A stretch of DNA of 64,000 bases from positions 558,001 through 622,000 of the forward strand of contig NZ_AUKG01000002.1 in NCBI RefSeq assembly GCF_000424625.1, given 5' to 3'. Positions 5,712 to 38,144 of this stretch are shown piece by piece. Positions within the stretch are counted from its first letter, which is position 1; the number at the start of each line of letters is the position of its first letter. This DNA is from Conexibacter woesei Iso977N (lineage in GTDB: Bacteria; Actinomycetota; Thermoleophilia; Solirubrobacterales; Solirubrobacteraceae). The translations under genes were made by a program, and so were the position numbers. The notes under the pieces are model-generated. The model saw nothing but the letters and a program-made list of their open reading frames with translations, searched no databases and was not told the DNA's origin.

Positions 5712-5819
5712 CTCTCGCTTCGGTCGTCCGGCTTTAGGTTCGCTTGATCACCCGATCAGGGGACTGTCAGGACGTCGTCCCACAGATGAGGTAGACGGCT
5801 GGTCTAGCCAGTTCAGTCA

Positions 5820-6180
5820 CGCGCCCCACACCCGCGGCACCGCCACCGCTCGCTCCGCGACACCATCTCGCGCCACCGCGCGCGTCGTGGTTGAGAAGGT
5901 CGTCGTCGCCCGCTGCCCCGCCACTGGTCGCGGTCTTCGCCGCGATCCGTCCGGCACCGCGACACGCGCCCGCTCGCCCCGGCGCCGCGAACGCCCGCTC
6001 CGCGCCATCACACCGCGCCACCGCCGACGTGGTGGTTGAGAACATCGTCATCGCTTCCGGCGCAGCCATTGGATGCGGTCTTTGCCGCTATCCGTCGGGC
6101 ACCGCTACGCGCGACCGCTTGCCCCGGTGCCGCCACTGCTCGTTCCGCGGCGACAGACCTCGCCACCGCGCGCGTTGTGG
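5820..6180. repeat. Non-coding tandem repeat array, period 145 bp, about 2.5 copies
   Basis: The segment GTGGTTGAGAA(C/G) recurs at 5887 and 6032, and the matching GTGG position recurs at 6177, giving an exact spacing of 145 bp twice. Flanking blocks (GCACCGC..., CGCTCCGCG, CGCCACCGCG) recur in the same order. Copies have diverged by substitution while keeping length. 145 is not a multiple of 3, so reading frames across it are not conserved and the array is unlikely to encode protein. It fills the 557-bp gap between the start of the DUF3105-like gene and the stop of the methyltransferase gene. A smaller inverted repeat (TGATC-accc-GATCA, 5745-5758) sits just before it, near the promoter of the DUF3105-like gene. 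Confidence 0.75.
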
Positions 6181-6268
6181 TCCTCGATCCAGCTGCTCCG
6201 GAGGACGTGGAGGATCTGGTCCGGGGCGTGCCGAGCGGCTGAGAGGCCGACGGTGGCGGGGAGGGCGA

Positions 6269-19899: not shown

Positions 19900-22899
19900 A
19901 TGGTCCAGCGGACCGCACCTGCGCGCATGGGGGGCGCCTTCGGCGTCGTGCTGCTGCTCGGCGGTCTCGCCGTGCTCATCCGCCACGCGGCCACCGGTGC
20001 GGACCCGGTGATGGCGATCCCCGCCGGGGCGCTCGCGATCGTCCTCGGCGGCTTCGTGGTCTGGCGCCGCGAGGCGCTGACGCTCGCCGACCTCGGCAAG
20101 CTCGCGCTCTTCAGCACGCTGATCGTCACGGTGGCGATCGCCGCGCGCGACACCCCGTACGGCGCGGGCTACGCCTACATCTGGGGCGCGCCGTTCGCGG
20201 TGGCCGCGTCGCGCCGCGTCGGGGTCGCGCACTTCGTGATCTCGGCGCTGTCGATCGCCGCGGCCTACGCGTTCCAGGCCGCGCACGTCGATGATCCGGC
20301 GGCGTTCAGCGAGTACGCGTCGTCGTGGGTGATCGCGGTCGTCTCGGTCGGCTTCGTCCTGCTCGTCACGAGCGTGATCCTGTCGTTCCTGGAGTCCACG
20401 CAGGCCGAGCTGGACGACGGCTTCGAGCGCGGGATCCTCGGCATGGCGTTCCTGGACCTCGGCGGGCGCTACCAGCGCGTCAACCCTGCGCTGGCGCAGA
20501 TGCTCGGCCGCGAGGTCGAGGAGCTGCTCGGCGCGCAGTTCAGCGAGTTCACGCACCCCGACGACCAGGCCGTGTCGCTCGACGCGCTGTCGCAGGTGGT
20601 CGATCAAGGGACCGCGGTCTTCGACAAGCGCTACGTGCGGCCGGACGGATCGTCGCGCTGGGTCTGCGTGCACGCGACGATCCTGCGCGACGACCAAGGC
20701 GTACCGTCGCGGATCTTCGCCGAGCACGAGGACATCACGGCGCGGCGGCGCGCCGAGCAAGCCGTCCGGGAGTCCGAGACGCGCTTCGAGCGCGCGTTCG
20801 AGGACGCGGGCGTCGGCATGCTGATCCTGGAGCTCGACGGGACGGTCCAGCGCGCCAACGGCGCCGCGGCCGCGCTGTTCGGCGCGGTGCCCGACGAGGT
20901 CAAGGGCACGTCGATCGTCGTCTGGCAGCACCCGGAGGAGCGCGTGGCGGGGCGGGAGGCGGCGAGCCGGCTGTTCTCCGACGGCTTCCCGGACATGTTC
21001 GAGCGCGACGTCCGCTACATCCGCTCCGACGGGCACGTCGTCCATACGGCGGCGACGGCCGCGCTGGCGCGCGACGACGAGGGCAGGCCCGCGTACACGA
21101 TCGTGCAGCTCGTCGACATGACCGAGCGGCTGACCGCGCGGCGGCGCGAGGCGGCGCTGTCGACGCTGGGGCAGCTCGGGCTGACGACCGAGTCGATGAG
21201 CCCGTTGTTGAAGGAGACGGTCCGGGTCGTGGCCGAGACGCTGGACGTCTCGCACGCGACGCTGCTGGACGGCGACGGCGGCGACATCCTGGCGGCGTGG
21301 GGGTGGGACGGCGAGCCGTCGCGCGCGCATGCGCGGGCCATGCTGGATTCGCCGGGCGCGCTGGTGCTCGACCACGCGGCGACCGAGCTGCGGTTCCCGA
21401 CGCGGGCGCTGCTGGATGCCGGTGTCATCACCGGCGCGGCGGTGCCGATCGCGGGGGAGGGCGACGCGCCGTTCGGGATCCTGTGCGTGCACGCGATCGC
21501 GGGCGAGCACCGGTTCGATCTTGAGGATGTCGCTTTCCTGGAGTCCACCGCGAACGTCGTGACGGCGGCGGTGCGCCGCGATGCGGCGGAGCGCGAGCTG
21601 CGCCACCGTGCGCTGCACGATCCGCTGACGAAGCTGCCGAACCGCGCGTTGCTGACCGACCGGCTGCGGCACGCACTGTCGCGCGCGCGGCGTGAGCACC
21701 AGTCGGTCGCCGCGCTGTTCCTCGACGTCGACGACTTCAAGGACGTCAACGACCGGCATGGCCACGAGGGCGGCGACGCGTTGTTGCAGGCGTTGGCGCC
21801 GCGGCTGCAGGGGTGCCTGCGGGCCAACGACACGCTGGCGCGGTTCGGCGCTGACGAGTTCGTGGTGGTCTGCGAGGACCTGGCCGATCCGGAGGAGGCG
21901 CTGTCGGTCGCCGATCGGCTGCTGGAGGCGTGCGCCGAGCCGGTGACGATCGGGGGTCCGGGCGGGACGGTGCGGCGGACGGCGTCGATCGGGATCGCGT
22001 TGAGCGGCGGGGCCGACGGCGACGACGCCGACACGCTGCTGCGGGATGCCGACCTGGCGATGCACCGGGCCAAGCTGGCGGGCAAGGGGCGCTACGAGGT
22101 CTTCGCGCACGCGATGCGCGAGCTGGCGCTGGATCGCGTGGCGATGTTGAACGACTTGGATCGTGCGCTGGCCGGCGACGAGCTGGCGCTGCACTTCCAG
22201 CCGATCGTGGACATCCGGACCGGTGAGATCATCTCCGCGGAGTCGCTGGTGCGCTGGCACCATCCGGAGCGGGGGCTGGTCATGCCCGACGAGTTCATCG
22301 GGCTGGCCGAGCGGACGGGGCGGATCGTGGAGCTGGGGCGCTGGGTGCTGCGCGAGGCGGCGCGGCATGCGGCGCTGTGGCCGGGGCTGTCTGTGGGCGT
22401 CAACGTGTCGCGGTTGCAGTTGAGCGACCCCGGGTTCGTGGATGAGGTCGCGCGCGCTCTTGGTGAGTTCGGCGTGGTGGCCGGCCGGTTCACGATCGAG
22501 GTGACGGAGACCGCGCTGATGGAGGATCCGGCGGCGGCGGAGACCGCGCTGCTGGCGTTGCGCGAGCTGGGCGTGACGATCTCGTTGGACGACTTCGGGA
22601 CGGGCTACTCGTCGTTGTCGTCGGTGAGCGACTTCCCGCTGTCGACGTTGAAGTTGGATCGCGCCTTCCTCGCCGACCACCGCCCCGAGGCCCAGCGCTG
22701 GTCGATCGTCCGAGCGGTCCTCGACATGGCCCGCACCCTCGAGCTCGACGTCATCGTCGAAGGCGTCGAAACCGAGACCCAACGCGCCCGCCTCGCCGAG
22801 CTCGGCGCCATCCACGGCCAGGGCTACCTCTTCGCCCGTCCGCTGCCGGCCGAGGCGCTCTCCGAGCTGCTGCACCGCGGCTCCCCCATCAACACCTAG
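19900..22899 (+). CDS. Membrane c-di-GMP signalling protein: 6TM-PAS-PAS-GAF-GGDEF-EAL
   Basis: About 999 residues. Six hydrophobic helices (about 10-165), two PAS domains (about 171-295 and 297-425), a GAF-like domain (about 430-555), a diguanylate cyclase domain (from LHDPLTKLPNRALL at about 570) and an EAL phosphodiesterase domain (about 745-995). The cyclase signature reads GADEF (residues 650-654) instead of GGDEF. The EAL motif reads ESL (781-783), but DDFGTGYSSL (about 897) and VEGVET (about 953) are intact, so hydrolysis of c-di-GMP looks more secure than synthesis. The start is uncertain: ATG 19900 precedes the first helix, with possible GTG starts up to 80 nt earlier. Confidence 0.88.
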   Translation: MVQRTAPARMGGAFGVVLLLGGLAVLIRHAATGADPVMAIPAGALAIVLGGFVVWRREALTLADLGKLALFSTLIVTVAIAARDTPYGAGYAYIWGAPFAVAASRRVGVAHFVISALSIAAAYAFQAAHVDDPAAFSEYASSWVIAVVSVGFVLLVTSVILSFLESTQAELDDGFERGILGMAFLDLGGRYQRVNPALAQMLGREVEELLGAQFSEFTHPDDQAVSLDALSQVVDQGTAVFDKRYVRPDGSSRWVCVHATILRDDQGVPSRIFAEHEDITARRRAEQAVRESETRFERAFEDAGVGMLILELDGTVQRANGAAAALFGAVPDEVKGTSIVVWQHPEERVAGREAASRLFSDGFPDMFERDVRYIRSDGHVVHTAATAALARDDEGRPAYTIVQLVDMTERLTARRREAALSTLGQLGLTTESMSPLLKETVRVVAETLDVSHATLLDGDGGDILAAWGWDGEPSRAHARAMLDSPGALVLDHAATELRFPTRALLDAGVITGAAVPIAGEGDAPFGILCVHAIAGEHRFDLEDVAFLESTANVVTAAVRRDAAERELRHRALHDPLTKLPNRALLTDRLRHALSRARREHQSVAALFLDVDDFKDVNDRHGHEGGDALLQALAPRLQGCLRANDTLARFGADEFVVVCEDLADPEEALSVADRLLEACAEPVTIGGPGGTVRRTASIGIALSGGADGDDADTLLRDADLAMHRAKLAGKGRYEVFAHAMRELALDRVAMLNDLDRALAGDELALHFQPIVDIRTGEIISAESLVRWHHPERGLVMPDEFIGLAERTGRIVELGRWVLREAARHAALWPGLSVGVNVSRLQLSDPGFVDEVARALGEFGVVAGRFTIEVTETALMEDPAAAETALLALRELGVTISLDDFGTGYSSLSSVSDFPLSTLKLDRAFLADHRPEAQRWSIVRAVLDMARTLELDVIVEGVETETQRARLAELGAIHGQGYLFARPLPAEALSELLHRGSPINT

Positions 22900-22909
22900 C
22901 ACTCGATCC

Positions 22910-23345
22910 GCCGCCGGTCGCTGCACCGCCACCCTCGATACACGCGGACTCGCCGCGTCGCGGCGGCGCCATCGGTCGTGTCCGCGGCCACACTGCCGCC
23001 TCCTCCGACGTTTGGAGTACCGATGGTCGTCGGTCGTAACTCCGCCGCCGTTTGGCGGTCTCCGCCGTCCTCGCTACACGCGGCCTAGCCGCGTCTCGGC
23101 AGCGCCACCCGTCGTATCCGCGGCCACACTGCCGCCTCCGCGGACGTTTGGAGTACCGATGGTCGTCGGTCGTAACACCCGCCGCCGTTCGGCGGTCTCC
23201 GTCGGCTTTCGCTACACGCGGTCGCGGCGCGTCTCGGCAGCGCCATCCGTCGTATCCGCGGCCACACTGCCGCCTCCGCTATCGCTTGGGTACTGGCCGT
23301 TGTCGGTCGCGACACCGCCATCGTTCGCCAGTCTCCGCCGGCGGC
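22910..23345. repeat. Non-coding tandem repeat array, period 136-138 bp, about 3 copies
   Basis: TCCGCGGCCACACTGCCGCC starts at 22981, 23117 and 23255, and TTTGGAGTACCGATGGTCGT at 23011 and 23147 (a diverged form at 23285). Another block (GCTACACGCGG...CGTCTCGGCAGCGCCA) recurs just before each. Each unit contains a small hairpin of the type CCGCC-GTTT-GGCGG. The period is not a multiple of 3, so the frames that run across it are not coding. The array fills the 516-bp gap between convergent genes (the c-di-GMP protein and the carboxyltransferase); no separate terminator was recognised there. Confidence 0.8.
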
Positions 23346-23415
23346 GCGGCCCGGGTCCGCGGAGGCTCTCCCGACTCCGCAGTCGCTCAGCGGCGGGCGG
23401 TCGGCGCTGCGCCGA

Positions 23416-24939
23416 TCAACATGTAGGCCATGCTGCCAGCGGGCGAGTTGAGCCGTTCGCCACCGGGCGGTTTGAGAGGCGGTTGAGGGAGCGGGAGAGG
23501 GTGGGGCGGGTGTCGGCTGGGTCGATGATCTCGTCGACCTTCATGAGGCCGGCGGCGCCGTAGGGGTCGATGTCGGCCGACATGTAGTCCATGGCGGCTT
23601 CGCGGGCGGTGTCGTCGCCGCCGGCGACGACGTTCGCGGCGACCAGTGGGTCCATGAAGGAGATCTCGGCTGAGGGCCAGGCGTAGACGGTGTCGACGCC
23701 GGAGTCGTTGCCGCCCAGCGAGAAGTAGGCCAACCCATAGGCCTTGCGCAACACGGTGGTCAACTTCGGCGCCTCGTGCAGCGCCAGCGCGGTCTGCAAC
23801 CGGATCGCGTGCTTGAGCATCCCGTCGTGCTCGACCTGCTTGCCGACGAAGAACCCCGGAACGTCCTGGAAGAACAGCACCGGGATGTCATAGGCGTCGG
23901 TCAAGCACAACAACTTGACGGCCTTCTCGCACGCGCGCGGGTCCAACGACCCGGCGAAGAACTTCGGCTGCGAGGCGATCACCCCGACGACATGCCCATC
24001 GAGTCGTCCCAGCCCGGACACCAGCCCGCGGCCGTAGCCGCTGCCGAGCTCCAGGAACGAATCGGCGTCGAGGACGCGGCCCAGGACCTTGTTGATGTCG
24101 TACGCCCGGGAGCGGCGGCGCGGCACGACGTCGGCCAGCTCCGCGTCGGGAGAGACGTCCTCGGTCGCGCCCCGCGGCGCCCGCTCCCGCCCGTTGGCCG
24201 GCAGCAGCGCGAGCGCGCGGCGGATCAAGGCATAGGCCTCGTCGAAGTCCTCGGCGATCAGGTCGATCTGGCCGGTGGTGCGAGCATGCACGTCGGCGCC
24301 GCCCAGCTCGTCGTTGGTCAGCTCCTCGCCCGTCGCGATCTTCGCGACCAGCGGCGAGGTCACGGCGAGGCACGTCCCGCGGACCTGGATCACCAGATCC
24401 GACGCGGCGCTCACGAACGACGACCCGCCGAACGAGTCGCCCACGATCACCGTGATGAACGGCACCCTCCGCCTGCGCCGGAACAGCTCGACGTCGACCG
24501 CGACCTGCGCGAACCCCGCCGAGCCCAGCGAGTCCGGGATCCGCGCGCCGCCCGTGGCACCGAAGTAGACGATCGGGTGCCCACAGCGCTCGGCATGCGC
24601 GAACAGCCGCCCCAAACGCCGCGAGCCCATCGGCGACGACGACCCGCGCTTGACCGTGATGTCATCGCCCGCGACCGTGACCGCGCGCCCGTCGACCGTC
24701 CCGTGCCCGCCGATCTTGCCGTCGCCCGGCGTGTCCGCCGCGTCCTCGGCGCGCAGCGAGTGCACGAACGTCCCGACCTCCTCGAACGACCCGGCGTCGA
24801 GCAGCGCGTCGATGTGCTCCCGCACCGTCCGCTCGCCACGCGCGTGCAGCCGCTCGACCCGCGCGACCCCACCCAGCTCGGAGCGCACCCGATCACGCCG
24901 CTCCAGGAACTCGCCGACCCGATCCACCTCTTCGTCCAT
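23416..24939 (-). CDS. Acyl-CoA carboxylase carboxyltransferase (beta) subunit
   Basis: 507 residues, typical of biotin-dependent propionyl-/methylcrotonyl-/acetyl-CoA carboxyltransferases. N-terminal half: GKIGGHGTVDGR, FGATGGARIPDSLGS (oxyanion loop) and GDSFGGSSF. C-terminal half: DADSFLELGSGYGRGLVSGLGRLDGHVVGVIA, FFQDVPGFFVGK and AWPSAEISFMDP. The subunit transfers carboxyl from carboxybiotin to an acyl-CoA. The biotin-carrier/alpha subunit is not in the window. Which acyl-CoA is used cannot be told; FMDP in place of the common GAMGPE-type loop suggests divergence from the classic PccB group. Divergent from the permease gene by 30 bp. Confidence 0.88.
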   Translation of the reverse strand: MDEEVDRVGEFLERRDRVRSELGGVARVERLHARGERTVREHIDALLDAGSFEEVGTFVHSLRAEDAADTPGDGKIGGHGTVDGRAVTVAGDDITVKRGSSSPMGSRRLGRLFAHAERCGHPIVYFGATGGARIPDSLGSAGFAQVAVDVELFRRRRRVPFITVIVGDSFGGSSFVSAASDLVIQVRGTCLAVTSPLVAKIATGEELTNDELGGADVHARTTGQIDLIAEDFDEAYALIRRALALLPANGRERAPRGATEDVSPDAELADVVPRRRSRAYDINKVLGRVLDADSFLELGSGYGRGLVSGLGRLDGHVVGVIASQPKFFAGSLDPRACEKAVKLLCLTDAYDIPVLFFQDVPGFFVGKQVEHDGMLKHAIRLQTALALHEAPKLTTVLRKAYGLAYFSLGGNDSGVDTVYAWPSAEISFMDPLVAANVVAGGDDTAREAAMDYMSADIDPYGAAGLMKVDEIIDPADTRPTLSRSLNRLSNRPVANGSTRPLAAWPTC

Positions 24940-38003: not shown

Positions 38004-38016
38004 CCGCCTCGTTCAA

Positions 38017-38128
38017 GCGATGGTGCGGGAAGTCGGTGAGAGTCCGACGCGGTCGCGCCACTGTGACCGGGGGTTCGCTTCGTTGAAGCGCGCACCCCGG
38101 CAAGCCAGGAACTTCACCCGGCCATCGC
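38017..38128 (+). promoter_or_regulatory. Adenosylcobalamin riboswitch aptamer
   Basis: The closing stem P1 is GCGATGG (38017-38023) with CCATCGC (38122-38128). Inside are the family hallmarks: GGTGCGGGAAGTCGGTGAGAG with TCC, GCCACTGTGACC (38057-38068) and the B12 box AAGCCAGGAAC (38102-38112). It precedes the first gene of the 23-gene cobalamin operon and should lower expression when adenosylcobalamin is plentiful. Confidence 0.95.
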
Positions 38129-38144
38129 ATTCAACCCCCTACCA

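Follow-up and report, generated by a model that had tools for sequence, protein, structure and literature searches.

An intergenic tandem-repeat family of Conexibacter woesei Iso977N oriented with the leading strand of replication on contigs C1 to C5

Between two convergent genes of Conexibacter woesei Iso977N lies a short tandem array, and the question that this locus raises is what kind of repeat it belongs to and what the repeat might do there. The window that we analyzed is a stretch of 64,000 nucleotides (contig C2, positions 558001 to 622000) of a 5.70-Mb genome in 9 contigs. Tandem Repeats Finder placed a three-copy array at 22908 to 23342 of the window (period 136, 3.2 copies, 84% matches, score 565), and a second repeat program reported three 118-nt copies starting at 22926, 23062, and 23200 (spacing of 136 and 138), with identities to copy 1 of 100, 89, and 65%, respectively. 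The lag of 136 gave the top self-match at the array among lags of 125 to 149 (0.49); a lag of 138 gave 0.40, and the others gave 0.25 to 0.36. The left neighbor (19927 to 22899, + strand), which gene calling and domain matches predicted to encode a PAS-GAF-GGDEF-EAL protein, stops 8 bp before the array. The right neighbor (23416 to 24939, - strand) was predicted in the same way to encode a carboxyl-transferase domain protein of the acyl-CoA carboxylase type, and its stop at 23416 faces the array. The repeat-finder period of 136 and the two stops confirmed that this is a tandem array between convergent genes, as an earlier note on this DNA had described it.

Repeat finding, profile hits, and strand assignment indicated that the array consists of three units of a subfamily, here called A, on the + strand, which is the leading strand at this place. 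Unit A1 (CTCGATACACGCGG ... GGTCTCC) spans 22934 to 23061 (profile hit C2:580934-581061), unit A2 spans 23070 to 23198 (C2:581070-581198), and unit A3, the furthest diverged of the three, spans 23209 to 23334 (C2:581209-581334). A coding repeat was rejected because 17 of the 25 listed A and B periods were not multiples of 3; a 183-codon open frame (23012 to 23563) that crosses the array was not chosen by the codon-usage gene caller.

The earlier note had seen a CCGCC-GTTT-GGCGG hairpin in each copy. The hairpin is exact in copy 1 and has one loop change in copy 2 (CCGCC-GTTC-GGCGG), so that part of the claim stood, but it is broken in copy 3, and it was absent from the consensus fold of 25 subfamily-A units. 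No intrinsic terminator was found in window 22850 to 23450, the one array gap scanned, and the same gap held no sigma-70-type promoter-like site. Its RNA fold had a z of -1.04, and no Rfam model matched the array at gathering score. RNAalifold gave weak folds for the two subfamilies to which it was applied, with two-sided changes in none of the 15 predicted pairs of subfamily A (25 units) and none of the 4 predicted pairs of subfamily B (35 units). The DNA folding of the units was also not unusual (mean z of -0.84 for the 25 A units and +0.30 for the 35 B units), and no hairpin ends were found. Elsewhere in the window, at 38004 to 38140, a cobalamin riboswitch scored above the Rfam gathering score.

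A repeat family with three subfamilies

The window holds another array, the "145-bp array" of subfamily B (5818 to 6181, + strand), which was delimited by the repeat finder, profiles, and genome search. Profile hits placed its units at 5819 to 5951 and 5964 to 6096, followed by a half unit at 6110 to 6181. Several partial units, this half unit among them, end near unit position 73 to 78, as if the unit were two-halved.

The genome-wide search for both units gave at least 18 matches to the 136-bp array and at least 27 to the 145-bp array (queries included), and a sequence-only model for A and B together (the joint model) found at least 84 copies. A third subfamily, C, gave at least 24 matches (query included). 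When the A, B, joint, and C searches were merged, at least 72 loci remained in this genome, in a merging that kept weak matches (E up to 1e-3) and joined neighbors up to 1 kb apart; in the merged set, a joint-model match and a C match (C5:58556) overlap. All of these whole-genome numbers are minimum counts, as scoring covered 150 of 20,376 first-look candidates for the joint model and 40 of 164, 315, and 381 for A, B, and C, respectively. Contigs C6 to C9 (about 0.18 Mb) had no listed match and carry no strand assignment. The proposal of a genome-wide class of about 140-bp intergenic repeats was thus borne out, and the absence of other copies from the genome, which would have spoken against such a class, was not what we found.

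The family was also followed in a sample of 100 20-kb stretches, placed at even spacing on C1 to C3 and more thinly on C4 and C5. In their 2.00 Mb, the even stretches alone held 32 copies at 19 A/B loci. Adding the matched loci and the window gave a joined set of 2.12 Mb, which includes loci fetched for matching. Iterated profiles in this set produced 29 hits from the A seed and 69 hits from the B seed at E<1e-4, and the same profiles produced no hits at that threshold in Markov-shuffled or reversed DNA. The 45 A/B loci of the joined set carried one copy (20 loci), two copies (20 loci), three copies (4 loci), or four copies (1 locus). Nearly all intergenic tandem arrays with a period of at least 80 belonged to the family: A/B loci accounted for 13 of the 14 in the joined 2.12 Mb and, when only the even stretches are counted, for 6 of 7. 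The remaining array of the 14 was the one that defined subfamily C.

The subfamilies differ in unit size, which is mostly 136 to 139 bp in A, 145 to 157 bp in B, and 131 to 134 bp in C; subfamily C has the opening CTCG-TACACGCG in common. Most tandem steps have periods of 131 to 157 bp, and the 15 listed B steps range from 145 to 157, in hand-picked lists that leave out irregular steps at C3:301411, C2:812626, and C2:945404. Outlying periods were 156 (the A locus at C3:301411), 166 (a C locus), and 174 (a B locus).

Seeds of two or three units gave no A/B cross-match, and the kinship of the two subfamilies was therefore not visible in the earlier note, which had called the 136-bp array unrelated to the 145-bp array. 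Because A copies enter the B profile on iteration, we built profiles from single subfamilies. The B-only profile matched three units at A loci, namely C3:301574 (E of 1.8e-5, an intermediate copy), C4:316333 (1.0e-4), and C4:316201 (3.4e-4), and the A-only profile matched one B unit, C2:458008 (E of 3.8e-6). Each of these matches covered nearly the whole unit in same-strand orientation; the best E values on Markov-shuffled DNA were 0.055 for the B-only profile and 1.6 for the A-only profile. A second A-only hit, C2:1380496, was not counted as a cross-match, since it has an A match alone and bears its B label by default. The C profile reached one A unit (E of 7.5e-4). By these profile comparisons, the subfamilies are related but distant. 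The few cross-matches are low but significant, and the two arrays of the window therefore look, and probably are, distantly related; the verdict "unrelated" is probably wrong.

Copies were more alike within an array than between arrays (identity of 0.86 versus 0.71 in A and 0.79 versus 0.64 in B), so tandem growth is local. Sites evolved at clearly unequal rates (HKY gamma alpha of 0.92 and 0.96, with an improvement in BIC of 146 and 282), a result compatible with constraint.

Orientation and placement along the chromosome

The units of all 72 loci had the leading-strand orientation, and no locus was mixed. Taken by search, among the matches listed and with overlap between the sets, the leading orientation was found for 18 of 18 (A), 27 of 27 (B), 84 of 84 (joint model), and 24 of 24 (C); subfamily C had been found by a tandem-repeat search and fitted the leading-strand rule afterwards. 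On C1, dnaA is at 557 kb; the 4 loci to its left are all on the - strand and the 22 to its right are all on the + strand, and the orientation sign flips between 471.0 and 758.7 kb, an interval that spans dnaA.

The leading strand was assigned without the repeats, by third-codon T-A skew, GGGGGAG counts, and synteny with a single-contig congener (G001) that has dnaA at 1.1 kb. The T-A skew (+ minus - genes) was -0.148 on the left of C1 and +0.115 on the right. Along C2, it was +0.134 (0 to 0.95 Mb), +0.140 (0.95 to 1.45 Mb), and -0.086 (1.45 to 1.87 Mb), and for C3, C4, and C5 it was +0.186, -0.129, and -0.153, respectively. The +:- counts of GGGGGAG were 65:10 on the right of C1, 9:10 (neutral) on its left, 53:4, 21:0, and then 7:17 along C2, and 26:4, 0:14, and 1:9 on C3, C4, and C5. 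This word was chosen for its skew under the strand assignment, and its raw count per contig stands alone. Third-position GC skew ran against the assignment on the left of C1 and in C2 at 1.45 to 1.87 Mb, with weak support. In the synteny comparison, C3 and then C2 followed one arm of G001, C4 and the right part of C1 followed the other, C2 at 1.55 to 1.76 Mb fell near mid-genome, and C5 was not placed. The terminus would accordingly lie between C2:1.45 and about 1.7 Mb, if gene order and skew are a guide; because no listed locus lies at C2:1.45 to 1.7 Mb, its exact point leaves the leading count unchanged.

The rule also extended to weak copies. At maximum sensitivity, all 81 merged hits at E<1e-3 were leading (79 intergenic and 2 mostly in called genes), as were all 5 intergenic hits at E of 1e-3 to 1, 4 of which had a known locus no more than 800 bp away. 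Among new intergenic hits at E of 1 to 20, 7 were leading and 3 lagging, and new in-gene hits in that range, a chance-level control, were 70 leading and 50 lagging. That weak copies keep the leading orientation fits an orientation set at birth.

Neighboring genes do not account for this polarity. Only 1,117 of 2,020 called genes (55%) were on the leading strand, with C2 counted as + throughout, and in tandem gaps 7 arrays ran with the genes and 11 against them (p of 0.48). Array orientation is not inherited from neighboring genes.

Gene arrangement did matter for where the arrays lie. The 45 loci of the joined set comprised 23 in convergent gaps, 18 in tandem gaps, 1 in a divergent gap, 1 inside a called gene, and 2 unclassified. 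In the segments holding the even stretches, gaps of at least 150 bp with an array were 14 convergent, 7 tandem, and 0 divergent, and those without an array were 37 convergent, 146 tandem, and 114 divergent. Arrays thus favor convergent gaps, or gene 3' ends (Fisher p of 7e-8, odds ratio of 14), and avoid divergent gaps (p of 8e-5). The zone around the inferred terminus (C2, 0.952 to 1.87 Mb) held 1 of the 72 loci against 12 expected, with a Poisson p of 8e-5 that is too small because the boundary was set past the last dense locus after the data had been seen. The weak locus C2:1380496 (E of 1.4e-4, leading) lies inside this sparse zone; it came from the sample only and is not among the 72. An avoidance of the origin was considered and dropped, as subfamily C occurs 86 kb to the left and about 200 kb to the right of dnaA.

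A sequence around GTCAACGGTGCATTT(T)GG adjoins three arrays, on C1 just after 1382480, on C2 just after 149340, and on C4 at about 315990 to 316080. It forms an inverted repeat at two of them and is possibly another dispersed hairpin family.

Turnover between species and possible carriers

The array at C4:316117-316609, with three full units and part of another, lies in a 698-bp convergent gap, and the counterpart of this gap in G001 has about 5 bp between two stop codons. About 145 and 60 bp of non-unit DNA flank the array, and no target duplication could be defined at this one empty site. Conversely, G001 has a unit relic at 3482148 (38 bits) where the Iso977N genome has other DNA. At the carboxyl-transferase orthologue in G001 (L230, 1.5 kb below C1:1704649), no adjoining array was found. 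A GGDEF/EAL match there covered 59 residues only, within the 1.5 kb seen; since the other neighbor differs, this is not a clean empty site.

G001 had four profile-supported matches, three of them weak, all on the - strand at 3.30 to 4.71 Mb, which is the leading strand of that arm if the terminus is near mid-genome. Four more BLAST matches in G001 (E of 1e-5 to 1e-4), three on the + strand at 1.2 to 2.2 Mb and one on the + strand at 5.4 Mb, were dropped, as the unit profiles gave them E of 0.13 or worse; the match at 5.4 Mb would be lagging. Among 146 genomes of the family (Iso977N included), where strict filters were applied and 21 candidates were scored in each, 3 gave a match at E of 1e-4 or better, and only Iso977N had more than one. 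In a comparison of 61 genomes (again with Iso977N), 7 had a match at E of 1e-3 or better: Iso977N, G001, and five others of the family and order, with one match each (1.5e-4 to 7e-4). Another genome, G093, had one match at 1.5e-6, for which the iterated B profile gives E of 0.0012. Judged by sequence similarity, the single matches in relatives may be distant relics, and for that reason "only this species" applies to amplification alone. The restriction to Iso977N is one of amplification as seen with the model used, not of presence, and a strongly diverged family would be missed by it.

Candidate carriers were sought in the genome and in viral contigs. A Y1 transposase-like domain of the REP-associated type, single in the genome, lies at C2:303556-303885 on the - strand. 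It matched Y1_Tnp over the Pfam cut-off, and its sole NCBIfam match, REP_Tyr_transpos, reached 61.9 bits against a cut-off of 80. In the 1.5 kb to each side of this domain, the A, B, and C profiles found nothing at E<0.05, and G001, with few repeats, has a counterpart of it at a roughly corresponding place. A retroelement was rejected, with no repeats at E<0.05 near the single retron-like reverse transcriptase gene (C2:411593-412246, - strand; best NCBIfam match of the retron St85 type, below cut-off). A phage carrier was rejected too: the one viral contig that shared a 21-bp core was similar over about 26 bp and had no unit at that place, and the subfamily-A junction pattern had no match in viral contigs.

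Explanations for the polarity and their significance

That all loci found share the direction of the fork suggests insertion by, or service to, replication or chromosome handling. We tentatively favor, ahead of its main rival below, the explanation that the family spread as a non-autonomous element by insertion coupled to the replication fork. Most simply, the element would enter the single-stranded DNA of the lagging-strand template, and its orientation would be fixed at insertion. Insertions into genes or promoters would be lost, which would leave the convergent gaps and account for the position at gene ends, and the units would then duplicate locally in tandem and diverge. The lone transposase-like gene described above is a candidate enzyme only. 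Fork-coupled insertion would explain the leading weak copies, the turnover between species, and the amplification in one species. Against it, the A and B units have no hairpin ends, no family match lies near the transposase-like domain, which is itself below the NCBIfam cut-off, and the repeat-poor G001 has the domain as well. Moreover, the single empty site came with extra non-unit DNA and no defined target duplication, site rates are unequal as expected for constrained blocks, and the scarcity near the terminus is not predicted. The main rival, possible but somewhat unlikely, is a polar chromosome-organizing signal, in which a protein reads the direction of the whole unit of about 140 bp on each arm and wrong-way copies are selected against. 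It would serve translocase guidance, condensin, or fork traffic by KOPS/AIMS logic with a longer unit. The strict polarity of the 72 loci, its independence from gene strand, the unequal site rates with conserved blocks, and the four profile-supported G001 matches (three weak; leading if the terminus is near mid-genome) all speak for such a signal. However, most unit-enriched words (top 15 per length) showed little strand bias outside the units, copy number in close relatives does not exceed a few, and density drops near the terminus, opposite to AIMS as described in PMC5993296. The genome also already has a KOPS/AIMS-like word, GGGGGAG(A), that is strongly leading biased (GGGGGAGA, 93:4 in 2.1 Mb; GGGGGAG, 10:1 in the window); the units lack GGGGGAG, and they were rejected as KOPS carriers. 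A related reading, which we also consider somewhat unlikely, is a polar address system, in which the unit would be a recognition element of about 140 bp, read by a protein or a condensin-like machine on both arms, in transcription-quiet convergent gaps and with the terminus nearly free. The 136-bp array of the window may be a binding array, as the earlier note had proposed.

The unit length points to a further explanation, since the wrap of gyrase is about 140 bp: the units could be gyrase-type sites for supercoil relief between convergent genes, one unit per enzyme wrap. The preference for convergent gaps fits this idea, as does a 10.0-bp G signal in subfamily A (z of 7.3), and PMC6379681 describes an extended gyrase motif in which G/C varies in phase every 10 bp, as well as gyrase cleavage in BIME-2 repeats. 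We nevertheless regard gyrase sites as improbable, because the z of subfamily A is inflated by the relatedness of its units, subfamilies B (35 units) and C (20 units) have no 10- to 11-bp G signal, B periods vary from 145 to 157, and the replication polarity is left unexplained. Helical phasing, seen in subfamily A only, was set aside as a family-wide trait. Polar fork barriers, which would pass forks from the origin and block retrograde forks by Tus/Ter-like logic, would account for the strict fork-direction orientation on both arms. Tus/Ter traps are expected around the terminus, but the repeats are scarce around the inferred terminus, and we know of no binding protein for the units; this reading is very improbable. 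Least probable of all are transcription terminators or a family of small RNAs, both put forward in the earlier note. The preference for gene 3' ends would suit them, but the gap in the window has no terminator-like or promoter-like site, an unremarkable RNA fold, and no Rfam match, the units show no covariation, and orientation does not track transcription (7 same and 11 opposite).

The closest precedent comes from the REP/BIME/REPIN repeats with RAYT transposases, in the GI-GIII REP tandem arrays of Pseudomonas fluorescens SBW25. As reported in PMC3116915, five of these arrays are forward near 2 Mb and six are reverse near 4 Mb, so that tandem repeats face opposite ways on opposite sides of the genome, as in the family described here. 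The family also resembles REP/REPIN sequences in being extragenic and multi-copy (gene calling placed one of 45 loci within a gene). It differs in having units of about 131 to 157 bp without the 21- to 65-nt hairpin of REP (size as given in PMC6006769), in having no family match near the transposase-like gene, and in that all 72 loci are oriented rather than a few arrays. IS200/IS605 elements insert into the lagging-strand template at forks, according to PMC6006769, and this would give a replication-dependent orientation like that of the family; unlike them, the units are in tandem and have no subterminal hairpins that we could see and no transposase, as about 140 bp is too short for a transposase gene. 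With AIMS and KOPS the family shares the leading-strand bias along both arms. Those octamers are biased genome-wide, also within genes, whereas the family has a fully biased unit of about 140 bp in intergenic gaps, its top words are mostly strand-equal outside the units, and the genome has a separate skewed octamer, GGGGGAGA. AIMS become richer toward the terminus (PMC5993296), and the family is sparse there.

Intergenic repeat families are common, and MIRU and other actinobacterial intergenic tandem repeats vary in copy number between loci. The present family is like MIRU in its intergenic tandem units of variable copy number and unlike it in its replication-locked orientation, a comparison made by description only. 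We know of no intergenic repeat family in which every locus genome-wide is locked to the direction of replication, and a search of the open literature showed, among the matches listed, neither this family nor any other intergenic repeat family whose replication polarity is complete. The dispersed intergenic family and its polarity are established here for contigs C1 to C5. If orientation is set at insertion, the family would be a natural record of fork direction and would point to a new fork-coupled route of mobilization without evident REP hairpins. If orientation is selected, the family would be a long polar signal of a new class, distinct from the octamers. The two possibilities make different and simple predictions, which makes them directly testable.
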